In this document: piece by piece, positions 208 to 11,197 of the stretch
Layout of the letters: each line of letters starts with the position of its first letter
How positions within the stretch are numbered: the first letter of the stretch is position 1
Source: Clostridiales bacterium
GTDB taxonomy: Bacteria; Bacillota; Clostridia; Oscillospirales; Oscillospiraceae
NCBI GenBank assembly: GCA_021201515.1
Contig: JAJQET010000013.1
Location: 1 to 11,443 of the forward strand
Length of the DNA stretch: 11,443 nt
Direction of reading: 5' to 3'
Program-made: the position numbers and the translations under genes
The notes under the pieces: generated by a model
Told to the model about the DNA's origin: nothing
Databases searched by the model: none
Seen by the model: the letters and a program-made list of their open reading frames with translations, nothing else

Positions 208-235
208 TTGCATTTTCCGGGAACTGTGCTATAAT
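208..235 (+). promoter_or_regulatory. Promoter of the aro operon (extended -10)
   Basis: TTGCAT (208-213) and a consensus TATAAT (230-235) are 16 nt apart, and TGC directly precedes the -10 as an extended -10 element. Transcription should start near 241-243, only about 24 nt before the leader-peptide ATG. That spacing is typical of leader-peptide attenuators. The resulting leader RNA is about 260 nt long before aroF. Confidence 0.8.
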
Positions 236-265
236 CGTCTTAACTAACCGAAGTGAGGCGCGCAG

Positions 266-406
266 ATGAACGACGCTATCCGTACAACCTATTACTCCTT
301 TACCGAGAGCTGGATCCGATTTATTGGTTCCGGCTATTTTGCGTGGGGAAAATTGGATAGCTGCGGGACAAGAGCGGGCATTGGTGTGCGCCCTGTGACG
401 GGGTAG
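266..406 (+). CDS. Aromatic-rich leader peptide (46 aa) controlling the aro operon
   Basis: This short ORF starts with ATG at 266 and stops with TAG at 404-406. A GTGAGG ribosome site (253-258) lies 7 nt upstream and the promoter just before that. The 46-residue product has eight aromatic residues within positions 9-27: Y9, Y10, F12, W16, F19, Y24, F25 and W27. All three aromatic amino acids, the end products of the shikimate pathway, are represented. No protein family is recognisable, and the peptide's likely role is to be translated rather than to act as a product. When charged Tyr, Phe or Trp tRNA is scarce, a ribosome would pause in this stretch and favour the antiterminator over the terminator at 440-474. 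The ORF, site and terminator are seen directly; the attenuation mechanism is inferred by analogy with the trp, phe and his leader peptides of enterobacteria. Confidence 0.8.
   Translation: MNDAIRTTYYSFTESWIRFIGSGYFAWGKLDSCGTRAGIGVRPVTG
308..335 (+). promoter_or_regulatory. Leader RNA hairpin within the aromatic codon run
   Basis: A308-A314 pairs with T329-T335 (one G-U), and after a T-T mismatch C316-C317 pairs with G326-G327. The hairpin overlaps the codons from W16 to Y24. A ribosome in this region would melt it. It could act as the transcriptional pause hairpin that synchronises ribosome and polymerase. The pairing is seen; the role is inferred. Confidence 0.45.
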
Positions 407-449
407 CACGCAAGGCAGTTTGATCACCAGTCGTATCAGGCTCATTGTC
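367..449 (+). promoter_or_regulatory. Candidate antiterminator helix (367-375 with 440-449)
   Basis: GGGACAAGAGC (365-375) is a near copy of the terminator's 3' arm GGGACAATGAGC (452-463), lacking one T. Segment 367-375 can therefore pair with the terminator's 5' arm 440-449, leaving A444 bulged. The terminator and this helix are mutually exclusive because both use 440-449. The sequence copy is seen directly; that it is used in vivo is inferred. Confidence 0.6.
384..411 (+). promoter_or_regulatory. Leader RNA hairpin spanning the leader-peptide stop codon
   Basis: GTGTGC (384-389) pairs with GCACGC (406-411), with one G-U, and CCC (391-393) pairs with GGG (401-403) inside it. The TAG stop lies in the descending arm. 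When the ribosome has not reached this point, the hairpin would bring position 375 closer to 440 and so help the antiterminator helix form. The role is inferred. Confidence 0.45.
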
Positions 450-474
450 ACGGGACAATGAGCTCTTTCTTTTT
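440..474 (+). terminator. Rho-independent terminator / attenuator before aroF
   Basis: GCTCATTGTC (440-449) and GACAATGAGC (454-463) form a perfect 10-bp stem with an ACGG loop. It is followed by the U-rich tail TCTTTCTTTTT (464-474). It lies inside the operon leader, 28 nt before the aroF start and downstream of the leader peptide, which is the position expected for an attenuator. There is no other gene here that it could terminate. Confidence 0.9.
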
Positions 475-502: not shown

Positions 503-1522
503 ATGGTAGTCATTTTAAAACCGGGCACCAGTCAGAACGAAATCCGAAAGCTGGTGGCCAAATTCGAGGCGATGGATCTGCGGGTTGGGGTCACCAACGG
601 CGTGGACTGCTCCATTCTGGGCCTGGTGGGGGACACCACCAAGGTGGACGCGGACAAAATCCTTTTAAATGAATGCGTAGAGCGGGTCACCCGCATCAGC
701 GAGCCGTACAAGAAGGCCAACCGGAAGTTCCACCCGGAGGACACGGTGGTGAATGTGGACGGCGTCCCCGTAGGCGGCAACAACTTCACGGTCATCGCGG
801 GCCCCTGCTCGGTGGAGAGCGAGGAGCAGATCATCGAGGTGGCCAAGCGGGTGCAGGAGCAGGGGGCCACCATGCTCCGGGGCGGCGCCTTCAAGCCCCG
901 CACCAGCCCCTACTCCTTCCAGGGCCTGGGCACAGACGGCCTTGACCTGCTGCTGGCGGCCAAGGCGGAGACGGGCCTCCCCATCGTGACGGAGATCATG
1001 GCCCCCCGGTACTGCGACCTGTTCGAGCAGAAGGTGGATCTTGTGCAGGTGGGGGCGCGGAATATGCAGAATTTTGAGCTGCTGAAGGAGGTGGGCAAGA
1101 TGTCCAAGCCTGTCCTCCTGAAGCGCGGCCTGGCCAACACCTGTGAGGAGTGGATTATGTCCGCCGAGTATATCATGAGCGAGGGCAACGAGAACGTCAT
1201 CCTCTGTGAGCGGGGCATCCGCACCTTTGAGAGGTACACCCGGAACACCCTGGATGTGTCCGCCGTTCCCTCCATCAAGCGGATGTGCCACCTGCCCATC
1301 ATCATCGACCCCTCCCACTCCGGCGGCTACAGCTGGCTGGTGGAGCCGCTGGCCCTGTCCGGCGTGGCGGCGGGGGCCGACGGCCTGATCATCGAGGTAC
1401 ACAACGACCCAGCCCACGCCCTTTGCGACGGCCAGCAGTCCCTGACCCCGCCCCAGTTCGGCGAGCTGATGGGGAAAGTGGAAAAAATGGTTGACCTGAT
1501 GGGGAAGACCGTTGTAAAATAA
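503..1522 (+). CDS. aroF: 3-deoxy-7-phosphoheptulonate (DAHP) synthase, type I-beta with N-terminal ferredoxin-like regulatory domain
   Basis: It condenses phosphoenolpyruvate and erythrose 4-phosphate to DAHP, the first step of the shikimate pathway, in the cytoplasm. Length is 339 aa. Residues 1-70 form the ferredoxin-like (ACT-like) domain seen in the Thermotoga maritima type enzyme, and the TIM-barrel follows from about residue 80. Motifs include GPCSVES (100-106), KPRTSPYSFQG (131-141), GARNMQN (184-190), KRGL (207-210) and DPSHSGG (269-275). The metal ligands C102, H272, E298 and D309 fall at the same numbers as in the T. maritima enzyme. A strong AAAGGAG site lies 7 nt before the ATG. 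The N-terminal domain suggests feedback inhibition by an aromatic amino acid (Tyr or Phe in relatives). With the upstream attenuator, the step would be controlled at both enzyme and transcript level. It could also be named aroG or aroA(G) in other schemes. Confidence 0.97.
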   Translation: MVVILKPGTSQNEIRKLVAKFEAMDLRVGVTNGVDCSILGLVGDTTKVDADKILLNECVERVTRISEPYKKANRKFHPEDTVVNVDGVPVGGNNFTVIAGPCSVESEEQIIEVAKRVQEQGATMLRGGAFKPRTSPYSFQGLGTDGLDLLLAAKAETGLPIVTEIMAPRYCDLFEQKVDLVQVGARNMQNFELLKEVGKMSKPVLLKRGLANTCEEWIMSAEYIMSEGNENVILCERGIRTFERYTRNTLDVSAVPSIKRMCHLPIIIDPSHSGGYSWLVEPLALSGVAAGADGLIIEVHNDPAHALCDGQQSLTPPQFGELMGKVEKMVDLMGKTVVK

Positions 1523-1564
1523 AAGAAGCGATTGCTGTGCTTGGCACATGGGAGGAACGAACCG

Positions 1565-2638
1565 ATGGAACGGGTTTTTGTGAACTTGCCGGGAAAAGAA
1601 TACGAGATTTTGATTGAGCGGGGCATTTTGGATCAGGCAGGGAAGCGGATGCGCACGGCGCTGCTCCGCCGCGGCCGGGCCGCCGTGGTCACTGACTCCA
1701 ACGTGGGGCCGCTGTACGCGGACCGGGTGGAAAAGAGCCTCGCCGACGCAGGCTTCACCGTGAAGGTGCTGACCGTTCCGGCAGGGGAGACCTCCAAGAG
1801 CGCCAAAATGCTGTCCTGGCTGTGGGAGGAATTTATGGCTTTCGGCCTGACCCGCACCGACTGCGTGGTGGCCCTGGGGGGCGGCGTGGTAGGCGACCTG
1901 GCGGGCTTTGCCGCCGCCAGCATCCTGCGGGGGGTGGACTTCGTCCAAATCCCCACCACCTTGCTGGCCCAGGTGGACTCCTCCGTAGGCGGCAAGGTTG
2001 CCATCGACCTGGAGGCAGGCAAGAACCTGGCGGGGGCCTTCTGGCAGCCCCGTCTGGTGCTGATGGACCCGGACGTGCTGGACACCCTCTCTGACCGCAT
2101 CTTCTCCGATGGCATGGCGGAGGTCATCAAGTACGGCTGCATCTATCAGGCGGACTTCTTCCACGCCCTGGACGCTATGGGCAGCCGGGCTGGGGTCATG
2201 GCGCAGATCGAAGCCGTCCTACGCACCTGCTGCGCCATCAAGGCTGAGTGCGTGGTGCAGGACGAGCTGGACAAGGGGCTGCGGATGATTCTGAACTTTG
2301 GCCACACCCTGGGCCACGCCTACGAGAAGGCGTATCACTACGAAACCTACACCCACGGGCAGGCGGTGGCCGCCGGTATGTGCCGGGCGGCGGAGCTGGG
2401 GGTGAAGCTGGGCTATACCCCGGCGGAGGTCCCCGGCCAAATCACTCAAATTGTGCGAAAATTTGGCCTCCCCGACCGCATCGCCTGCACGATGGAGGAC
2501 TACCAGGCCGCCATCGGCCTGGACAAAAAGGGTCAGGGCGACAGCATCCGCCTCATTGTCCTGCCGGAGCTGGGCAGGGCCCAGGCGGTGAAGCTGGAGA
2601 AATCCGCCCTGTTTGACCTGATCGAGGTGGAAGCATGA
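1565..2638 (+). CDS. aroB: 3-dehydroquinate synthase
   Basis: It converts DAHP to 3-dehydroquinate using NAD and a divalent metal (zinc or cobalt). The product is 357 aa, normal for the family. The ATG at 1565 is chosen because GGAGGA (1551-1556) lies 8 nt before it and because MERVFVNLPG fits the family start. An in-frame ATG at 1532 has no such site. The NAD-binding GGGVVGD is at residues 105-111, followed by the IPTTLLAQVDSSVGGK segment at 129-144 and GKNLAGAFWQP at 152-162. The metal ligands are visible as E186 (in AEVIKYG), H247 (in NFGHTLGH) and H264 (in THGQAV). It follows aroF after 42 nt, and its stop overlaps the aroA start in ATGA, so the two are translationally coupled. Confidence 0.97.
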   Translation: MERVFVNLPGKEYEILIERGILDQAGKRMRTALLRRGRAAVVTDSNVGPLYADRVEKSLADAGFTVKVLTVPAGETSKSAKMLSWLWEEFMAFGLTRTDCVVALGGGVVGDLAGFAAASILRGVDFVQIPTTLLAQVDSSVGGKVAIDLEAGKNLAGAFWQPRLVLMDPDVLDTLSDRIFSDGMAEVIKYGCIYQADFFHALDAMGSRAGVMAQIEAVLRTCCAIKAECVVQDELDKGLRMILNFGHTLGHAYEKAYHYETYTHGQAVAAGMCRAAELGVKLGYTPAEVPGQITQIVRKFGLPDRIACTMEDYQAAIGLDKKGQGDSIRLIVLPELGRAQAVKLEKSALFDLIEVEA

Positions 2639-3864
2639 ATTTGTATCTGGAGCCGGGCAAGCTCACCGGCACGCTGACCCCGCCGCCCTCCAAGAGCCAG
2701 GCCCACCGGCTGATCATCGCCGCGTCCCTGGCCCAGGGGGTCAGTCATCTGACCAATCTGGCCGCCAGCGAGGACATTCAGGCCACCCTGAGCTGCATGG
2801 CGGCCCTGGGGGCGGGCTATGACCGGGACAGCGGGGAGATTCGGGGCGTCGCGCCCCACGGCGCAGAGACGCTGCCGAGGCTGGACTGCGGCGAATCCGG
2901 CTCCACCCTGCGGTTCCTGATTCCGGTAGCGTTGGCCCTCACCGGCGGCGGGCAGTTCTTTGGCCGCGGGCGTCTGCTTGCGCGGCCTATGGGGCCCTAT
3001 GAGGCGCTGTTTCAGGAAAAGGGCATCCGTTATGAGCGCAGCCCGGACTGCATCACCGTAGAGGGGACCCTGCCCCCCGGCCTGTACCGCCTGCCGGGGA
3101 ATGTATCCAGCCAGTTCATCACAGGGCTGCTCTACGCCCTGCCCCTGCTGGAGGGGGACAGCGAGCTGGAGTTGACCACCGGGCTGGAATCCGGCGGCTA
3201 TGTGGATATGACGCTGGATGCCCTGAACCGGTTCGGTGTGACGGTGCAGCGGACGGCGGCGGGCTGGTATATCCCCGGAGGGCAGCGGTATACCCCACAG
3301 GACTGCGCCATAGAGGGCGACTACTCTCAGGCCGCCAACTTCCTGGTGGCGAACAGCCTGGGGGCATCTATCCGGCTGGATGGGCTGAACCCTAATTCCA
3401 CCCAGGGTGACCGGATAATTTTGGATTATGTGCGCCGGTTGGAGGAGCCGGGAGAGGTGACGCTGGATGTCAGCCAGTGCCCCGATCTGGTACCTCCCCT
3501 GGCCCTGCGGGCGGCCCTCCGGGACGGGGAAGTGACCCATATCGTAGGGGCGGCCCGGCTTCGGATGAAGGAGAGCGACCGTCTGGACACCGTCACCATC
3601 GAGCTAAACAACCTGGGCGGCCATGTGACCCAGGGGCCGGACAGCCTGACCATTCTGGGCCGAAGCTACCTGTACGGTGGCGTGACGGACAGCCACAATG
3701 ACCACCGCATTGCCATGATGCTGGGGGTGGCCGCCACCCGCTGTCTGGACGCCGTCACCGTCTGCGGGGCGGAGTGCGTGGCCAAATCCTACCCCAACTT
3801 CTGGGAGGATTACAAAAAACTGGGCGGCGATGTTCGCCAGAGGGCTTCAACTGCTTCAAAATGA
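2635..3864 (+). CDS. aroA: 3-phosphoshikimate 1-carboxyvinyltransferase (EPSP synthase)
   Basis: It transfers enolpyruvyl from PEP to shikimate 3-phosphate. At 409 aa it is slightly short compared with about 427 in E. coli. Active-site elements are present: SKSQAHR (19-25), ESGSTLR (87-93), RPM (117-119), SSQ (158-160), the catalytic Asp in CPDLVPP (D284), KESDR (312-316, E313), NDHR (355-358) and the C-terminal AKSYPNFW (383-390, K384). The SGST version of the substrate loop differs from the NAGTAMR of E. coli class I enzymes, so glyphosate sensitivity cannot be assumed. It starts in the ATGA overlap with aroB. The last residues after YKKLGG (about 393-398) look non-conserved and may have been replaced when the segment downstream was inserted (see findings). 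Confidence 0.96.
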   Translation: MNLYLEPGKLTGTLTPPPSKSQAHRLIIAASLAQGVSHLTNLAASEDIQATLSCMAALGAGYDRDSGEIRGVAPHGAETLPRLDCGESGSTLRFLIPVALALTGGGQFFGRGRLLARPMGPYEALFQEKGIRYERSPDCITVEGTLPPGLYRLPGNVSSQFITGLLYALPLLEGDSELELTTGLESGGYVDMTLDALNRFGVTVQRTAAGWYIPGGQRYTPQDCAIEGDYSQAANFLVANSLGASIRLDGLNPNSTQGDRIILDYVRRLEEPGEVTLDVSQCPDLVPPLALRAALRDGEVTHIVGAARLRMKESDRLDTVTIELNNLGGHVTQGPDSLTILGRSYLYGGVTDSHNDHRIAMMLGVAATRCLDAVTVCGAECVAKSYPNFWEDYKKLGGDVRQRASTASK

Positions 3865-4826
3865 TTGAACCAACCGCAGCAGGGAGGAAACGCCTGATTC
3901 CTATAAAAAGCAGGAAGGGCCATGTGGTGTTACTATGTTTGAACCTGGTTTGGAAATCGGCCAAATCCTGAAAAACAGCGATCTTGTTGAAGTCTTCAAA
4001 TGTGGAAATATGGGCGGCATGCGCCGTTCCAAAACGACGAATACACTGGTGATTATTTCAGACTACACAAAGGGGCTTTACCATGACAAATGGATTGGCG
4101 GGGTTCTTCATTACACTGGCATGGGCAAACATGGCGACCAGGACATCAACTGGGCGCAGAATGCAACATTGGCAGCCTGTGGCAGAAATGGTGTTGACAT
4201 CCATCTGTTTGAGGTAATGGATGCGGGGGAGTACGTATACTGCGGCAGAATCGAGCTTGTGAATAAGCCCTATATCGACATCCAACCGGGGGAAGATGGA
4301 ACTGACCGCAAGGTATGGATGTTTCCCATCCGTCCTGTGCCCGATAACGATGTCAAAAAGCCTGGTATGTTTGTGTTCAAAGACATGGACGACTACAAGA
4401 CACGCGGAAAAGATGTCGATGCGGAGTACATGAAGCTGCTTGCGGAGCGGAAGAAATCTGGTAGGAAAGCACCCGAAAAAACGCTCCTACCGGCACCGGT
4501 TACTGCCTCTGATACGCCAAAGCCTGCTGTTCCGCCCCAGGTTGTGGGCAAGCGTCTGAACCATAAAATCTATGGTGAAGGCACAGTAATTGGCATTGCA
4601 GGCGGCATTATCGTTGTCTCCTTCGACTCTGTTGGCGAGAAGAAACTCGGATATGAGATTTGTATCAAAAACGGATTGATTGCGTTTCTTTAGATTGAAC
4701 TATGAGGGCAAGGTTGCATCTGCTGCTAAATTGCAAGCTCAGCTAAGCCGCTTGAGCATCTGGCATTGCAAGCGGTGATGATCACATAAATGATACTTTT
4801 ATCGCCGTCATCGGCGGAAAACTGGG
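3825..4826. mobile_element. Probable inserted segment between aroA and aroC, flanked by a 9-bp direct repeat
   Basis: AAAACTGGG occurs at 3816-3824 (near the end of aroA) and again at 4818-4826 (just before aroC). Short palindromes lie just inside each end: GGCGA/TCGCC (3826-3838) and CGCCG/CGGCG (4803-4816). Sampled 60-base lines are about 45% GC inside the segment and about 68% in aroC. There is no transposase or integrase, and no clear long terminal inverted repeat, so the type of element is unknown. The repeat might be coincidental because it is A- and G-run rich. Confidence 0.35.
3935..4693 (+). CDS. ScoMcrA-type SRA-like domain protein with C-terminal Tudor-like domain
   Basis: The product is 252 aa with no signal peptide or membrane segment. 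Residues 1 to about 135 match the pattern I know from the SRA-like reader domain of Streptomyces McrA-type proteins: GGMRRSKTTNTLV (27-39), HYTGMGKHGDQD (59-70), QNATL (75-79), DIHLFEV (88-94), YCGRIEL (102-108) and RKVWMFPIR (125-133). In that family the domain recognises modified DNA, such as phosphorothioate or methylcytosine. Residues 140-200 are a charged, Pro/Ala-rich linker. Residues 204-252 (VGKRLNHKIYGEGTV onward) resemble the small Tudor-like tail of UvrD/PcrA-type proteins. No HNH nuclease motif is present. The ATG has only a distant AGGAAGG site (16 nt away), so expression may be weak or coupled. Base composition is clearly lower in GC than the flanking aro genes, a sign of transfer. 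Function here is unknown; a defence or DNA-binding role is inference. Confidence 0.72.
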   Translation: MFEPGLEIGQILKNSDLVEVFKCGNMGGMRRSKTTNTLVIISDYTKGLYHDKWIGGVLHYTGMGKHGDQDINWAQNATLAACGRNGVDIHLFEVMDAGEYVYCGRIELVNKPYIDIQPGEDGTDRKVWMFPIRPVPDNDVKKPGMFVFKDMDDYKTRGKDVDAEYMKLLAERKKSGRKAPEKTLLPAPVTASDTPKPAVPPQVVGKRLNHKIYGEGTVIGIAGGIIVVSFDSVGEKKLGYEICIKNGLIAFL

Positions 4827-4835
4827 GGAACCATC
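4694..4835. other. Non-coding stretch between the inserted gene and aroC
   Basis: No ORF or terminator is seen in these 142 bases. There is a 7-bp inverted repeat (CCGCTTG 4748-4754, CAAGCGG 4769-4775) with no U-tract. A weak promoter-like pair (TTGCAA 4766-4771, AATGAT 4789-4794, 17 nt apart) could help transcribe aroC onward. The aroC ribosome site GGGGGAA is at 4824-4830. Confidence 0.4.
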
Positions 4836-5897
4836 ATGAAACACACCATATTTGGCGAGAGCCACGGCCCGGCCATCGGCGTGACGCTGTCCGGCGTCCC
4901 GGCGGGGATTGAGCTTGACATGGAGGAGATCGCCTTTGAGCTTGCCCGCCGGGCCCCGGGGAAGAGTCCACTGTCCACAGCCCGGAAGGAGGCAGACGTG
5001 CCGGAAATCCTCTCCGGAATGTTTGAGGGGCAGACCACTGGCACCCCCCTCTGCGCCGTCATCCGGAACACCGACCAGCGTTCCAAAGACTACAGCAAGC
5101 TGCGCTACCTGCCACGGCCCGGCCATGCCGACTACACCGGATTCCTGCGCTATGACGGCTGCAATGACTACCGGGGCGGCGGCCACTTCTCCGGTCGGCT
5201 GACTGCCCCCCTGGTCTTTGCCGGGGCGGTGGCCAAGCAGATTCTGGCCCAGGAGGGCATCGTCATCGGCGCGCACATCCGCTCCATTGCCGACGTGGAG
5301 GACCTGCCCCTGGAAAACGCCGGGGAACCCCTGAGCCGGGAGCTTCTCCGCCAGGTGGCGGAGAAGCCCTTCCCTGTGCTGGACGACGGCAGGGGGGAGG
5401 CCATGCAGCAGGCGATTTTACAGGCCAGGTCGGAGCGGGACAGCGTGGGCGGCATCATTGAGTGCGCTGTGCTGGGCCTGCCCCCCGGAGTGGGTTCCCC
5501 TGACTACGGGGAAAATGTGGAGGGCATCTTTGCCCAGCACCTGTTCGCCGTCCCTGCGGTGAAGGGCGTCGCCTTTGGCGCAGGCTTCGGCATGGCCTCC
5601 ATGCGGGGCAGCGAGTGTAACGACCCCATCCGCATTGCCCGGGGCAGCATCTACACCCTGGGGAACGTGAACGGCGGCGTCAACGGCGGCATCACCAACG
5701 GTATGCCGGTGATGTTCTCCGTGGCCATCCGGCCCACCCCATCCATTGCCCAGGAGCAGGACACCATTGACCTGGAGAAGATGGAAAACGCCAGGCTGAC
5801 CATTGAAGGCCGGCACGACCCCTGCATCTGCCACAGGGCAGTGCCGGTGATTGAGGCGGCGGCAGCGCTGGCCACCTGTGAACTGCTGGGAATTTGA
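4836..5897 (+). CDS. aroC: Chorismate synthase
   Basis: It performs the FMNH2-dependent elimination of phosphate from EPSP to give chorismate. The product is 353 aa, near the lower end of the family's usual length. The three family signatures are present: GESHGPAIGVTLSG (7-20), the GGHFSGRLTAPLV region (about 112-124), and GRHDPCICHRAVPVIE (325-340). The start is set by GGGGGAA, 5 nt before the ATG, and by the conserved position of GESHG. The bases ATGA at the start would provide an overlap with aroA if the inserted segment were absent. It is followed after 17 nt by pheA. Confidence 0.97.
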   Translation: MKHTIFGESHGPAIGVTLSGVPAGIELDMEEIAFELARRAPGKSPLSTARKEADVPEILSGMFEGQTTGTPLCAVIRNTDQRSKDYSKLRYLPRPGHADYTGFLRYDGCNDYRGGGHFSGRLTAPLVFAGAVAKQILAQEGIVIGAHIRSIADVEDLPLENAGEPLSRELLRQVAEKPFPVLDDGRGEAMQQAILQARSERDSVGGIIECAVLGLPPGVGSPDYGENVEGIFAQHLFAVPAVKGVAFGAGFGMASMRGSECNDPIRIARGSIYTLGNVNGGVNGGITNGMPVMFSVAIRPTPSIAQEQDTIDLEKMENARLTIEGRHDPCICHRAVPVIEAAAALATCELLGI

Positions 5898-5914
5898 ACG
5901 AGGAGGAAGCCCCC

Positions 5915-7075
5915 ATGTCAGAATTGGACGAACTGCGGAAAGAGATAGACACCATCGACCGGCAAATCGTGCCGCTGTACGAACAGCGGATGCGGGTCAG
6001 CCGACAGGTGGGGGAATATAAGCTGAAACATGACAAGGCCATCCTGGACCCCGGGCGGGAACAGGAGGTGCTGACCGCCAAGGCTGCCCTGGTGGAGGAC
6101 AAGGCCCTGCGGCCCTACGTCGTCGCCCTGTATGAGCAGATCATGGCCCAAAGCCGGATGATTCAGACCAAGCTGCTGGGGAGCTGGAATCCTGCCAAGG
6201 AGCGTTCTTACAAGGAGTATCACGAGGCGGTGAACACGGTGGGCTGGCGGCCGGAGACCGACCGGGTCATTTTCCAGGGCAAGCCCGGGGCCTACGGCGA
6301 GGAGGCCACCATCCAGTATTTTGGGGAGCACTGCGACCGCACCAGCGCCCGGAGCTTTGAAGGGGTTTTCCTTGCCATCCGGGAGGGGCTGGGGGGCTAC
6401 GGCGTGGTGCCCATTGAGAACAGCTCCACCGGCTCCATCAACGATGTGTACGACCTGCTTGCTAAGTACGGCTGCTACATCGTGGGGGAGACCACCGTCC
6501 ATGTGGAGCACTGCCTACTGGCCCCCCACGGCGCCAGCCTGGGCAGCATCACGGACGTCTACTCCCACGAGCAGGGCTTCTCCCAGTGCCGGGACTTTTT
6601 GGGCACCTTCCCCCAGTGGAATCAGAACGTGGAGCTGAACACTGCCGCTGCCGCCAAGCTGGTGGCGGAGTCCGGAGATGTCAGCAAGGCGGCCATCGCC
6701 AGCAGCCGGGCGGCAAAACTCTATAATATGGACGTTCTGGCCGAGAAAATCAACGACAACCGGAACAATTACACCCGTTTTGTGGTGGTGGCAGAGAAGC
6801 CCTGCGGCGGCGAGGACGCGGATAAGGTCAGCGTGGTCTTTACCGTTCCCCACACCGAGGGCAGTTTGCACCGTATCCTGTCCGTCTTTGCCACCAACGG
6901 GCTGAACCTGCTGAAGCTGGAGTCCCGCCCCATTCCCGGGCGGAGCTGGGAATATACCTTCTTTGCTGACTTCACCGGCCACCTGAACGGCGGCGGCATG
7001 GACGACGTGATTCACCAGCTCATTGACGAGACCTTGAGCTTCCGCATTTTGGGCAACTACCGCCGCAGCGAGTGA
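5915..7075 (+). CDS. pheA: Bifunctional chorismate mutase / prephenate dehydratase (P-protein) with ACT domain
   Basis: It converts chorismate to prephenate and then to phenylpyruvate, the committed route to phenylalanine. The product is 386 aa, the same length as E. coli PheA. Residues 1-90 are an AroQ-type chorismate mutase, with R8, R25, K36, D45, R48 and E49 aligning to the E. coli catalytic residues at a constant offset of 3. The dehydratase domain follows with VVPIENSSTGSIND, YSHEQGFSQC and NNYTRF. The C-terminal ACT domain has EGSLHRIL and LESRP, the Phe-binding motifs, implying feedback inhibition by phenylalanine. The ATG at 5915 is chosen because AGGAGGA (5901-5907) lies 7 nt before it. 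A TTG at 5894 overlapping the aroC stop is in frame but less likely. No tyrA is in the window. Confidence 0.96.
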   Translation: MSELDELRKEIDTIDRQIVPLYEQRMRVSRQVGEYKLKHDKAILDPGREQEVLTAKAALVEDKALRPYVVALYEQIMAQSRMIQTKLLGSWNPAKERSYKEYHEAVNTVGWRPETDRVIFQGKPGAYGEEATIQYFGEHCDRTSARSFEGVFLAIREGLGGYGVVPIENSSTGSINDVYDLLAKYGCYIVGETTVHVEHCLLAPHGASLGSITDVYSHEQGFSQCRDFLGTFPQWNQNVELNTAAAAKLVAESGDVSKAAIASSRAAKLYNMDVLAEKINDNRNNYTRFVVVAEKPCGGEDADKVSVVFTVPHTEGSLHRILSVFATNGLNLLKLESRPIPGRSWEYTFFADFTGHLNGGGMDDVIHQLIDETLSFRILGNYRRSE

Positions 7076-7087
7076 GGAGGGGACATC

Positions 7088-7954
7088 ATGCAGCTTTCCT
7101 ATGAAAACGACAGCCGGAAGCTGGCGGTCATCGGCGACCCGGTGCTGCACTCCCTGTCGCCGCTGCTGCAAAATACCATGATTCAGGCCCTGGGGCTGAA
7201 CTACATCTATCTGTGCCAGCCGGTGGCAAGAGGGGAGGCCAAGGCGTGGCTGGAGGCTGTAAAGCTATTAGACTTTGCAGGCTTTAACTGTACCATGCCC
7301 CACAAAATCGATATGGTTCCCCTGATGGATGAGCTGGATGAGGACGCGGCGCTGTTCCAGGCGGTGAACACAGTTTGCCTCCGAGGCGGCAGACTGTACG
7401 GCTGCAACACGGATGGCAGGGGCTTTTATCAGTCCCTGCTCCAGCGGGGCATTGACCCGGCGGGGCGGAACGTCACCGTCCTGGGTACCGGCGGCGCGGC
7501 CAAGTCCGTGGCGCTGAAGCTGCTGCAGCAGGGGGCGGACCATATCACCGCGTGCAACCGGACGGTGTCCAAAGCGGAGCAGCTCTGCCGCTTCGCCCCG
7601 GACCGGATGGAGGCGAAGGGCCTTTCCACGGAGGAGCTGAGAGAGGGCGTCCGCCACGCCGACCTTCTGGTGAACTGCACCTCCCTGGGGATGAAGGGCA
7701 CAGGGGCGGATTTCGCCTCACTGGACTTTCTGGACGCCCTGCCCGCCCATGCGCCGGTGTGCGACCTGATCTACAGCCCCGCGGCCACCAGCCTGCTGAT
7801 GCGGGCGGGGGAACAGGGTCGCACCGTGATGAACGGCATCGGGCTGCTGATCTGGCAGGCCATCTATGCATTGGAGGAATTTACTCAGACCTCCATCGAC
7901 GGGGCGGCCATGGCCGCGCTGCTGGAGCCGCTGATGCTGCAGTATCAGGCATAA
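7088..7954 (+). CDS. aroE: Shikimate dehydrogenase (NADP)
   Basis: It reduces 3-dehydroshikimate to shikimate. The product is 288 aa, within the family range. The substrate-binding SLS is at 22-24, the catalytic lysine is K73 in TMPHK, and N94 and D109 (in AVNTV and NTDGRGF) complete the active site. The NADP-binding GTGGAA is at 133-138, followed by NRT at 157-159. NCTSLGM and a C-terminal NGIGLLIWQA also fit. GGAGGGG, directly downstream of the pheA stop, is the ribosome site, and the ATG is 12 nt after pheA. It is the last gene of the aro operon. No canonical U-tract terminator follows it. It could act on quinate as well, as some paralogues do, but the operon context argues for shikimate. 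Confidence 0.95.
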   Translation: MQLSYENDSRKLAVIGDPVLHSLSPLLQNTMIQALGLNYIYLCQPVARGEAKAWLEAVKLLDFAGFNCTMPHKIDMVPLMDELDEDAALFQAVNTVCLRGGRLYGCNTDGRGFYQSLLQRGIDPAGRNVTVLGTGGAAKSVALKLLQQGADHITACNRTVSKAEQLCRFAPDRMEAKGLSTEELREGVRHADLLVNCTSLGMKGTGADFASLDFLDALPAHAPVCDLIYSPAATSLLMRAGEQGRTVMNGIGLLIWQAIYALEEFTQTSIDGAAMAALLEPLMLQYQA

Positions 7955-8203: not shown

Positions 8204-9652
8204 ATGGTTTTTTCTGATCTGCTGTTCGTATTTGCGTTTTTTCCGCTGAATATGCTTTTTTATTGGCTGATGCCGGATATTCCCAGAAAAAACCGGGTTC
8301 TGCTGATTTTTTCCCTGATTTTCTATGCCTGGGCCGGGCCCATGTACCTGCTGCTCCTGGTGGGAATGGCCTTTGCGGACTGGGTCGTGGCCCTGCAGGT
8401 CGAGCGCTGCAAAACAAGGCGGAGCCGCAAGCTGGTTCTGGCGGCGGGCTGCACCATCAACCTCACCCTGCTTTGCATTTTCAAATACCTGACCTTCCTG
8501 CTGGAGAACATCCAGTTCCTCTTTGGCGTCCCGTCGGAGATCGTGGAGATCACCTTACCCATTGGCATTTCTTTCTACACCTTCCAGCTGCTGAGCTACA
8601 TGGTGGACGTCTACCGCAGCACGGTCCGGGCACAGCGGAAGTTTACCACGCTGCTGCTCTACGTCAGCCTGTTCCACCAGTGCATTGCCGGGCCCATTGT
8701 CCGCTATGAAACGGTGGAAAGGGAATTGACTTCACGGTCCGTCTCCAGCGACGATTTGGCCTACGGCATCCGCCGGTTCACCGTGGGGCTGGCAAAAAAG
8801 GCCCTCTTTTCCAATTACTGCGGCTCCCTGGCGGACACCTTCCTGGTAGCCACGGATGCGGTCGACGGCGCGGCGACTCTGGCGACCCAGCCGGCCCTGT
8901 CCATCCTTCTGGGTACTATCTGCTACACCATGCAGATTTACCTGGACTTCTCCGCCTACTCCGATATGGCCATCGGCATGGGGCGGATGGTGGGCTTTCA
9001 TTATCTGGAAAACTTCCTGTACCCCTATCAATCCACCTCCATCACCGAGTTCTGGCGCAGGTGGCATGTCTCCCTCAGTTCCTTCTTTCGGGATTACCTT
9101 TACATCCCCCTGGGGGGCAGCCGCTGCAAGCGCAGCCGCATCATCTTCAATACCCTGGTGGTGTGGGTGTGTACCGGCTTCTGGCATGGGGCCAGTTGGA
9201 ATTATATGCTGTGGGGTCTCTTTTACTTTGCCATGTTGTGCCTGGAAAAGTTCGTGTTCCCCAACTTCACCCAGCGAATGCCCAGGGCGGTGGCCCACCT
9301 CTATGTGCTGCTGGTGGTGAATTTCGGCTGGATGCTGTTCCGCTGTGAGGACTTGAGCTGGCTGGGCATTGAGCTGAAAGGGCTGCTGGGGCTCAACGGC
9401 AACGGCTTTGTCAGCTATGAAACGCTGACCACTCTGAAGGCAAACTTCATCTTCCTGCTGGCTGCGGCCCTGGCCTGCACACCGCTGGTGAAGCGGCTGG
9501 GGGAGCGGCTGACCGATCTGTGCCAGCGCAGCCTCAGGCTGGCCACCGTTTACCAGACGGTGCTGGCGGTGATTCCCGTTGCGTTGACTGTGGTGGCCAC
9601 AGCCTGCCTCGTGGGGGACAGCTACAACCCGTTTCTGTACTTCCGATTTTAA
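8204..9652 (+). CDS. MBOAT family O-acyltransferase (AlgI/DltB-like)
   Basis: This is a polytopic membrane protein of 482 aa, with hydrophobic segments throughout. It is expected to carry an acyl group across the membrane to modify a surface polymer. Family motifs are HQCIAGPIVRY (158-168), ITEFWRRWHVSLSSFFRDY (280-298), IPLGGSR (301-307) and GFWHGASWNYMLWG (325-338). The two conserved histidines are H288 and H328, and H328 is the likely catalytic residue. The MVFSDLLFVFAFFPLN start is typical of the family, and GAGGGGGG lies about 9 nt before the ATG. It has its own promoter, so it is probably not part of the aro operon. The acceptor (exopolysaccharide, teichoic acid or another glycan) and acyl group cannot be read from the sequence. 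The downstream DHHW protein is its likely partner. Confidence 0.92.
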   Translation: MVFSDLLFVFAFFPLNMLFYWLMPDIPRKNRVLLIFSLIFYAWAGPMYLLLLVGMAFADWVVALQVERCKTRRSRKLVLAAGCTINLTLLCIFKYLTFLLENIQFLFGVPSEIVEITLPIGISFYTFQLLSYMVDVYRSTVRAQRKFTTLLLYVSLFHQCIAGPIVRYETVERELTSRSVSSDDLAYGIRRFTVGLAKKALFSNYCGSLADTFLVATDAVDGAATLATQPALSILLGTICYTMQIYLDFSAYSDMAIGMGRMVGFHYLENFLYPYQSTSITEFWRRWHVSLSSFFRDYLYIPLGGSRCKRSRIIFNTLVVWVCTGFWHGASWNYMLWGLFYFAMLCLEKFVFPNFTQRMPRAVAHLYVLLVVNFGWMLFRCEDLSWLGIELKGLLGLNGNGFVSYETLTTLKANFIFLLAAALACTPLVKRLGERLTDLCQRSLRLATVYQTVLAVIPVALTVVATACLVGDSYNPFLYFRF

Positions 9653-9673
9653 CAGGGGGAGGGCGAAGCAAAC

Positions 9674-11197
9674 ATGAAAAAGAGTTCCAATTCCAATGTG
9701 ATCCATAAGAAGCGGGCGAAACTTGTGTCTGTTTTCGCCCGCGGCCTGTTGGATCTGATCGAATCCTGCATGGCGCTGTTCGGCAGAGGCCCGAAGGGTC
9801 TGGAGCGGAAGCAGCGTGTGCAGCAGAAGGAGCGGGGCGGCGCCCACCTGACGGTTTGGTTTGCGGGGATTTTCCTGACCGTCATGACGCTTTTGGCCCT
9901 GTGTATTCCGCTGCGGCCAACCTATTCGGAGCTGGAGCAGCGCGAACTGGCTACCTTCCCGACACCAACTGTGGCAAGCGTGCTGAACGGTGAGTTTTTC
10001 ACCGACGTCAGCTCCTGGTTCTCCGATACCTTCCCCCTGCGGGAGCGGTTCACCAATCTGAACAGCGCCCTGCAAAGCAACTTTGGCATCCAAAGTACGC
10101 AGATTCACGGCACCGTTGAGCAGGGGGACGAGATTCCCTCGGTGACGGACGGCTCCGGCGCAGTGTCCTCCGGGGAGCAGTCCAGCACCGTAGCGCCGGA
10201 GCAATCCAGCCAGACCGAGCCGGAGCAGGAACCGGAAGAGGAGGATAGTGTCACCATTCCGGAGCTTGACCCGGACGCCAAGGTGGAGACGCTGGGGGCC
10301 CTGCTGGTGATTGACGACGCCGGCTATGAGTATTACAACTTCTCCGCCGAACGGGCAGAGAACTATATCAAAGGTATCAACCGGGCGGCGGAGCTGCTGG
10401 ACGGCATCGCCAACGTGTACAGCATGATTGTCCCCAACAGCATGGACATCTGCGTACCGGAGAGCGTCCGCAGCAGCATCAACACCTCCGACCAGTCCCA
10501 GGTCATTGAGTACTTTTACTCCAGCATGAACGATAATGTGACGACGGTAAACGCCTTCCACACCCTGCTGGCCCATAACACAGCGGGAGAGTACCTCTAT
10601 TTCCGGACGGACCATCACTGGACGGCCCTGGGCGCCTATTATGCCTACTGCGAGTTTGCCGCCGCCGCCGGCCGGACTGCGGCGGATTTGGAGACTGAAT
10701 TTGTGGAGCACGTCTTTGAAGGCTTCCTGGGCAGCTTCTACCGGGAGACCAACAGCTCCACCATGGCGGCGAACCCGGACACGGTCTACGCCTATGAGCC
10801 GGTGGACACCAACGACATCACGATTCACTGGCAGGATGGTACGGTGAGTGATTATAACATCATCACCGATGTGTCGGACTGGTCGGCCACCAGCAAGTAT
10901 TCCTCCTCGTTCATCGGGGGCGACAACCCCTACAGCGTCATCGAGAACCCCAACATCACCGACGGCAGCTCCGTTCTGTTAATCAAGGAGTCCTACGGCA
11001 ACTGCTTTGCCCCCTACCTGGTGGAGACCTATCAATACGTCTATGTGGTGGATTTCCGCTATTACTGCGATACGGAGAGCGGTACCCTTCTGGACCTGGT
11101 GGAGCGTGAGGGGATTCAGGACGTGCTGTTCCTGAACACGATTTCCACCACCCGGGCGGAAAACCTCATCACACAGTTGCTGCAATTCATCGGTTGA
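9674..11197 (+). CDS. Membrane-anchored DHHW family protein (AlgX/AlgJ-like, SGNH-type fold)
   Basis: The product is 507 aa. A basic cytoplasmic stretch (1-60) is followed by one membrane helix (about 61-80) and a large extracytoplasmic domain. The SELEQRELATFP (85-96) and SDTFPLRERF (117-126) motifs are typical of the DHHW family. Residues about 150-195 form a Ser/Glu/Gln/Pro-rich low-complexity linker. The hallmark DHHW is at 313-316 (RTDHHWTALGAY), and KESYGNCFAP (438-447) supplies the candidate nucleophile S440. By analogy with AlgJ/AlgX beside AlgI in alginate acetylation, it likely completes acyl transfer to the polymer outside the cell. The start codon lies 21 nt after the MBOAT stop with a GGAGGG site, so the two form one operon. 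The polymer acted on is unknown. Confidence 0.88.
   Translation: MKKSSNSNVIHKKRAKLVSVFARGLLDLIESCMALFGRGPKGLERKQRVQQKERGGAHLTVWFAGIFLTVMTLLALCIPLRPTYSELEQRELATFPTPTVASVLNGEFFTDVSSWFSDTFPLRERFTNLNSALQSNFGIQSTQIHGTVEQGDEIPSVTDGSGAVSSGEQSSTVAPEQSSQTEPEQEPEEEDSVTIPELDPDAKVETLGALLVIDDAGYEYYNFSAERAENYIKGINRAAELLDGIANVYSMIVPNSMDICVPESVRSSINTSDQSQVIEYFYSSMNDNVTTVNAFHTLLAHNTAGEYLYFRTDHHWTALGAYYAYCEFAAAAGRTAADLETEFVEHVFEGFLGSFYRETNSSTMAANPDTVYAYEPVDTNDITIHWQDGTVSDYNIITDVSDWSATSKYSSSFIGGDNPYSVIENPNITDGSSVLLIKESYGNCFAPYLVETYQYVYVVDFRYYCDTESGTLLDLVEREGIQDVLFLNTISTTRAENLITQLLQFIG

Follow-up and report, generated by a model that had tools for sequence, protein, structure and literature searches.

The region upstream of aroF in the window (the whole 11,443-nucleotide stretch that was analysed, contig C2 of a genome that is 62% complete) has the organization of a classical attenuator of the ribosome-mediated kind that would control transcription of the aro operon, a reading to which we assign a probability of about 0.86. 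The anatomy of this leader, its conservation among relatives, the maintenance of its reading frame and the complementarity of its segments were all observed. Since frame, start codon, aromatic run, terminator and the potential to form an antiterminator are conserved in relatives, its assignment as a leader-peptide attenuator is well supported by sequence comparison.

All parts of the leader lie on the forward strand between 208 and 474. A promoter (208–235) with a −35-like TTGCAT (208–213), a 16-base spacer and TATAAT (230–235) is followed by a Shine-Dalgarno (SD)-like GTGAGG (253–258), 7 bases 5′ of the ATG at 266 that opens a 46-codon ORF (266–406, stop codon TAG at 404–406), by an intrinsic terminator (439–474) and then by aroF at 503. 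The ORF encodes MNDAIRTTYYSFTESWIRFIGSGYFAWGKLDSCGTRAGIGVRPVTG (46 aa), of which codons 1–29 (266–352) are the part common to relatives. The aromatic control run (290–346), read from the ORF translation as Y9, Y10, F12, W16, F19, Y24, F25 and W27, places three Tyr, three Phe and two Trp codons within the 19 residues 9–27. The sequence-only reading had described this order of promoter, ribosome site, 46-codon ORF and perfect terminator ahead of DAHP synthase, which was confirmed, and its count of aromatic codons was exact. Segment 1 (GCTATCC, 275–281) is complementary, by eye, to GGATAGC (355–361), which together with GGACAAGAGCGG (366–377) makes up segment 2 (355–377). A conserved hairpin lies within the coding run (309–334), formed by GCTGG (309–313) and CCGGC (330–334), and its loop holds the near-invariant codons CGA-TTT. 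The terminator stem (439–464) is perfect, with 11 pairs and a loop of 4, folds at −16.1 kcal/mol and is followed by CTTTCTTTTT, the T-rich tail occupying 465–474. A separate terminator-like hairpin, GGCTGCGCTCCGGCGCAGCC followed by TCTTTTCGTT (107–126; 8 pairs, 7 of them G-C), is located just 5′ of the aro promoter.

The first gene of the operon, aroF (503–1522, forward strand), encodes a DAHP synthase with matches to PF00793 (DAHP_synth_1) and PF18152 (ferredoxin-like domain). The remainder (1532–7954, forward strand) comprises aroB, aroA, an uncharacterised ORF, aroC, pheA and aroE. Pfam identified pheA (5894–7075, chorismate mutase/prephenate dehydratase) and aroE (7088–7954); the names aroB, aroA and aroC are presumptive. 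The operon contains no tyrA, and a search with the window's proteins found a similar gene order in relatives. The 252-aa ORF between aroA and aroC (3935–4693) had no Pfam match above the cut-off (the best was PcrA_UvrD_tudor, E 0.0085), and nothing corresponding to it appeared among the matches listed for the operons of relatives, that of the sister genome G016 included. Directly 3′ of the operon (8204–11197), an MBOAT O-acyltransferase adjoins a DHHW/ALGX-like protein; such pairs often O-acetylate surface polymers.

The promoter at 208–235 was not listed in a consensus promoter scan of the window because its −35 element is poor. Seven terminator-like sites were found in the whole window against 9.6 expected, so the terminator site by itself is not significant. 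When the 450 bases before aroF were shuffled with dinucleotides preserved, an ORF with SD and ATG and at least 8 aromatics in 22 residues arose in 3 of 2000 shuffles, and one with at least 6 in 23 of 2000. The folding z-score of 242–480 was −2.62.

For a comparison of related aroF genes, 103 upstream regions of the window type (type A) were collected from the family. Before counting, genome G013, with 10% contamination, was dropped from the type-A comparison, and locus L212 was dropped because its upstream DNA is too short. Within the window's genus, aroF was matched at E 1e-30 in 26 of 32 genomes. The six genomes lacking a match (G004, G009, G010, G025, G029 and G030), three of them less than 90% complete, are possibly aromatic auxotrophs or users of other DAHP synthases. 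An aromatic-rich leader, called automatically as at least 5 aromatics in 22 residues, was present before 94 of the 103 type-A genes, a typical product being MNRSALTTASFYFTFGWARFMSAGFFGMVK; by eye, the automated calls include false or doubtful ones, in type A that of L119. GAGG or a similar motif precedes most of the called ORFs, and promoter-like sites recur by eye 5′ of many of them. A terminator was reported for all 94 called leaders by our own relaxed finder. In this comparison, which the sequence-only reading had proposed and in which the terminator search covered the 94 called leaders, no clear case emerged of the observation it had named as contrary, a leader that keeps the terminator and has lost the aromatic ORF. 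The nine upstream regions without a call are G130, G204 and G239 (all three g100 genomes examined), G289, G309, G424 and G355 (g89), G128, and G140, whose leader has just 4 aromatics within the 22-residue window. In two genomes of the window's genus the leaders match exactly those of records named Ruminococcaceae bacterium RUG12037 and Oscillospiraceae bacterium RGIG1979.

To avoid selection by aromatics, the reading frame was assessed with the hexamer CGATTT as anchor, which is present in 90 of the 103 regions. A frame with SD and ATG was open through the hexamer in 84 of the 90 when read in the CGA frame; the two remaining frames gave 0 and 2. When a profile built from 30 type-A leaders was run against 197 genomes of the order, 14 of them had matches. 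Eleven of these genomes belong to the window's family and have one match each, 8 of them located beside aroF by tblastn and 3 by coordinates. The other three matches were marginal; L361 is also at an aroF, and for the remaining two no aroF was found in the stretch examined. As judged from this search, type-A leaders are confined to aro operons. A search with a single peptide gave one genome with two good matches, G008. On its contig C61 (L029), a second leader with terminator (1489–1780) precedes an aroF reduced to the last 26 residues, followed from 1886 by an intact-looking aroB with 76% identity; another contig (L008) carries a leader, a full aroF and aroB. This suggests that the leader was kept with the operon, and serves it, after loss of aroF from that copy, or else an assembly fault.

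The pairing expected of an attenuator was also recovered among relatives. The terminator stem is kept in type-A relatives with changes on both sides, and the segment right after the leader stop (e.g., GATGAAATGAATGAG) is complementary to the 5′ arm plus loop of the terminator (CTCATTGATTTCATC). Over the 94 type-A leaders, antiterminator duplex energies gave a mean z of −1.84 relative to shuffled spacers, with 51 leaders at p 0.05 or better. In swap tests, from which peptides 80% or more alike were dropped, 69 non-redundant type-A leaders paired better with their own partner than with swapped ones (−16.4 versus −13.5 kcal/mol, 0 of 2000 permutations), and segments 1 and 2 behaved likewise (−28.0 versus −22.2, 0 of 2000). 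Own-partner antiterminator pairing was also better in 25 leaders of type C (aroF of other genera) and at 55 loci from named genomes, where base composition may help. In 28 leaders of type B, a second aroF paralogue, own pairing was no better (p 0.80), and the duplex test against shuffled spacers also failed for this type. When 31 chosen type-A leaders were aligned with MAFFT, 69.8% of the antiterminator cells were paired, compared with 32%–48% when the alignment was slid; covariation on the aligned antiterminator of these 31 was not above shuffles. From the last aromatic codon to the start of the antiterminator strand the median distance is 15 bases, compared with 23 in shuffles, and 15 bases is approximately the reach of a stalled ribosome.

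The window's own best antiterminator duplex was not significant alone (z −0.9, p 0.215). Two strands are candidates there, 366–377, which pairs with the terminator 5′ arm at −12.7 kcal/mol, and an alternative at 392–411 (−14.8 kcal/mol). We prefer 366–377 as the putative antiterminator because the letters 353–380 do not differ among the six members of the window's subclade while 392–408 varies. In this subclade the stop after codon 29 has been lost, and the ORF extends by 17 codons (353–406) over segment 2; in the other called type-A leaders the ORF has a median of 31 codons and is at most 40 codons long in 84 of 88. The amino acids of the extension differ from those of the window in three of the six genomes, so there is no sign that the added peptide matters. 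With the ORF extended in this way, a ribosome that has reached the stop codon would leave 366–377 unmasked.

From these features we infer translation of the ORF, stalling and termination, as well as which amino acids count. The ORF would be translated while RNA polymerase transcribes the leader. When charged aromatic tRNA is short, which most surely applies to Phe and in this genus may also apply to Tyr and Trp, the ribosome would stall within codons 9–27 and cover segment 1. Segment 2 (∼355–377) would then be available for pairing with the terminator's 5′ arm (439–453), and transcription would read through into aroF. With the tRNAs charged, the ribosome would run on and segment 2 would be either masked or taken up by segment 1; the terminator (439–464) would then form and stop transcription. 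In the subclade with the longer ORF, termination after full translation might need re-pairing of segments 1 and 2 behind the ribosome.

Which amino acids are sensed was approached through codon counts at the conserved positions of 93 type-A leaders. The centre of the leader holds Arg in 88 (CGA in 85) and Phe in 90 (TTT in 89), and a later position holds Phe in 82; Trp occupies its conserved position in 72. CGA-TTT (317–322 in the window) is near-invariant at the nucleotide level and lies inside the loop of the internal hairpin, and in type-A leaders a conserved 6-bp hairpin encloses it; in some bacteria CGA is decoded slowly. The proposal that the leader reads all three aromatic amino acids survives in part: the attenuator layout is conserved and, within the window's genus, 20 of 23 leaders carry codons for all three, but Trp is absent from many relatives' leaders. 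All three occur in 39 of 55 type-A leaders from genomes with paralogue B and in 27 of 38 from genomes without it, the genus included. These composition counts drop leaders with under 5 aromatics (9 of 103 in type A, 4 of 38 in type B and 1 of 27 in type C). Phe is likely sensed by the type-A leader, and for sensing of all three in the window's genus the chance is about one half.

The alternative that survives best is the same attenuator sensing essentially phenylalanine, with the Tyr and Trp codons as passengers or kept for RNA pairing; we regard it as a real contender at rather less than even odds. The near-invariant codons are indeed Arg-Phe, pheA is within the operon, and the first Trp codon (TGG, 311–313) falls in the hairpin at 309–334, where it pairs with the CCGGC side, Trp being kept in 72 of the 93 leaders. 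In the available text of a review, the AroR leader of Corynebacterium glutamicum (Phe-Tyr-Phe) is without a response to Tyr (PMC11802643). Against a leader that senses phenylalanine alone, set positions alternate between Phe and Tyr through TTT and TAT in the 93 leaders, Tyr replacing Phe codons, and genomes lacking the Tyr-rich paralogue show more Tyr, as expected if Tyr were read.

Outside the window's genus, 64 of 80 genomes with a type-A aroF also carry this paralogue, type B, one of the 64 having just a fragment of it; within the genus, a second aroF was found only in the contaminated G013. Tyr dominates the type-B leaders (mean Phe 1.65, Tyr 5.38 and Trp 0.24 in 34 of 38 examined; e.g., MALYFGYAYGYYRYYRSGYFACP), the calls at L083, L086, L100 and L209 being doubtful by eye. 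Of the 26 type-B loci with a leader call and downstream DNA, 23 have tyrA as the following gene. All 26 called type-C leaders (27 examined) have Phe and Tyr and no Trp, and the one type-C operon examined in full, that of G123, reads aroF-tyrA-aroB-aroA-aroC-pheA, in which tyrA was presumptively identified. Mean Tyr in type-A leaders is 2.39 in genomes without B versus 1.09 with B (in genus g89, 3.5 versus 0.93). As a share, Tyr is 0.301 (38 leaders without B) versus 0.151 (55 with B), a difference with p 1.6e-7 over genomes and 0.052 over genus means; the corresponding shares in g89, 0.452 (6) versus 0.129 (15), possibly reflect few loss events. The raw Tyr share is likewise 0.621 in 50 loci with tyrA next door versus 0.26 in 79 others. 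Phylogenetic contrasts between tyrA and leader Tyr gave p 0.15 (123 loci) and 0.007 (57 named loci); after weak calls were dropped by eye, p 0.38 (115 loci) and 0.043 (49 named loci); and with equal branch lengths, p 0.09, 0.47 and 0.081. Tyr codons seem to increase where paralogue B is missing, but this association and that with neighbouring tyrA are weak after correction for relatedness. The codon patterns agree with codons that are read, though the lineages behind them are few.

In 13 genomes of the window's genus tyrA is apart from aroF, and no leader was seen by eye before the stand-alone tyrA among the readable ones, three being poorly anchored. A palindrome of the form ACTTTAGCAC-n6-GTGCTAAAGT lies across the type-B aroF promoter in 29 of 38 cases (e.g., L070, at −237 from aroF, L074 and L075), compared with 1 of 103 in type A and 1 of 27 in type C; similar palindromes were seen by eye before some stand-alone tyrA genes (L325, L329 and L333). 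It is a candidate operator of a tyrosine regulon repressor.

A broader reading, which we hold tentatively and place just short of an even chance, is that the DAHP synthase leaders form one widespread, re-tunable attenuator set in Clostridia and beyond. Leader codons would follow the supply from operon and paralogues: Phe and Trp at type-A aroF (with pheA), Tyr at type-B aroF (with tyrA), Phe and Tyr in single aroF-tyrA-…-pheA operons, and a shift to Tyr or to all three where the Tyr paralogue is missing, the window's genus being such a case.

A metabolite-binding riboswitch or other structured RNA, in which the ORF is incidental, would account for the conserved internal hairpin and for the strong conservation of nucleotides, third positions included. 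Variation by codon position in type-A leaders is 0.375, 0.409 and 0.387 at first, second and third positions; the excess of third-position variation expected from coding selection was not found, and the nucleotide sequence itself is therefore constrained beyond the peptide. Such an RNA is nonetheless improbable, given that the frame is kept in 84 of 90 regions against 0 and 2, that SD and ATG recur, that codons are swapped from aromatic to aromatic, and that distant relatives keep the aromatic ORF with a different sequence. An Rfam search of the leader region matched no family, neither at the gathering threshold nor up to E 1, and both the riboswitch and the T-box readings of the window were rejected on this result.

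Somewhat less probable again is a functional small hydrophobic protein followed by a plain leader terminator. The peptide is conserved and the subclade has its 17-residue extension; however, the extension varies in amino acids in three of six genomes over identical segment-2 letters, distant loci keep the aromatic content and not the peptide sequence, and the leader peptide matched no Pfam or NCBIfam family. A T-box riboswitch reading uncharged aromatic tRNA is scarcely credible at this site, since, although T-boxes precede aroF at 5 of 30 named loci and trpE in the same family, the model RF00230 had no match in the window and none was found in 20 A-, B- and C-type loci scanned.

Aromatic-rich leaders were also called beyond the family. 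In a scan of named genomes for aroF relatives, 589 loci were confirmed, and among the best 80 of these a leader (SD, ATG and 6 aromatics in 22 residues) was found at 55. Controls gave a mean of 1.75 and a maximum of 4 in 20 rounds of dinucleotide shuffling, and 3 on the reverse strand; ten calls were doubtful by eye (L231, L249, L262, L266, L269, L272, L279, L285, L237 and L293). The leaders include those of isolates (C. magnum, C. tyrobutyricum, C. nigeriense and other Clostridium; e.g., MKRIASIIAKFNSFFYFTFWGFFFSAGYFFCKKNNSFQVSF) and of metagenome-assembled genomes labelled in their records as Lachnospiraceae, Acidaminococcaceae, Synergistaceae, Fusobacteria and Lentisphaerae; a genome labelled Treponema has a leader with a TTG start. 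At distant loci the aromatic ORF is kept and the peptide sequence is different. The five T-boxes among the 30 named loci scanned with Rfam (L237, L239, L251, L261 and L269) indicate that the same gene uses either sensor. At trpE in the window's family, 1 of 10 loci had a T-box above the cut-off (L316). The trpE locus of a sister genome of the window (L311) scored 77.9 bits, below the cut-off of 93, with E 2.6e-16, and the motif GGTGGCACCGCG, which we take to be the T-box core, is visible by eye at several other trpE loci.

Leader-peptide attenuation is usually linked with Proteobacteria, Firmicutes using T-boxes. The same contrast is stated in the available text of PMC2965389. In many Clostridia, leader-peptide attenuation nevertheless appears to guard the first committed reaction of the aromatic pathway, in a family that also has T-boxes at trpE. 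Should leader codons really track which operon genes and isozymes are present, these leaders would provide a natural series on how the codon run relates to the specificity and sensitivity of attenuation. The element would also make a compact aromatic-amino-acid sensor for gut anaerobes.

In E. coli, pheL and trpL have a defined order of parts and a 1:2, 2:3, 3:4 switch. The window's leader resembles them in the order of parts and in a presumed switch of this kind, whereas pheL and trpL each read one amino acid and act on a terminal branch instead of the shared initial reaction. Single leaders with codons for more than one end product are known from E. coli ilvL and thrL, which the window also resembles, theirs being the branched-chain or Thr/Ile pathway. 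TRAP-regulated leaders carry ∼11 (G/U)AG repeats that overlap an antiterminator. Panina reportedly treated aromatic regulation in low-GC Gram-positives in 2003, and an aroR leader before aroF of C. glutamicum is said to have been described by Neshat in 2014. A leader before aroF of C. glutamicum was published earlier (PMC4046766, Mentz 2013, available text). According to the accessible part of the review that also names the E. coli pheL-pheA and trpL-trp attenuators (PMC11802643), the AroR leader has Phe and Tyr codons and responds to Phe, not Tyr. It is similar to the window in having Phe and Tyr leader codons before a DAHP synthase operon and in ribosome-mediated attenuation; C. glutamicum differs in being an Actinobacterium with a Phe-Tyr-Phe leader for which that part names no Trp. 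The Acholeplasma uORFC-13-1 motif likewise combines a uORF with Phe codon(s), promoter, SD and terminator directly 5′ of aroF, but its 24 representatives come from Acholeplasma and environmental sequences, and the available text discusses only Phe (PMC8632094); the same text dates a hypothesis of attenuation at E. coli aroF to 1980. Ribosome-mediated leaders of Firmicutes include hisS/hisZ (PMC2965389) and S. aureus ilv (PMC5794164), which, in the excerpts available, differ in having His or Leu codons and in belonging to Bacilli. In Streptomyces, an attenuator-looking leader gave no response to codon changes (PMC1262725, available text). No description of the Clostridial aroF leader family was found in the PMC literature, which omits most subscription papers. 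Hence the sequence-only statement that no example had been described holds, within the literature searched, for the Clostridial family and not for the kind: a switch of this type is known from C. glutamicum and Acholeplasma, and its presence at aroF of many Clostridia is, as far as searched, what is new.
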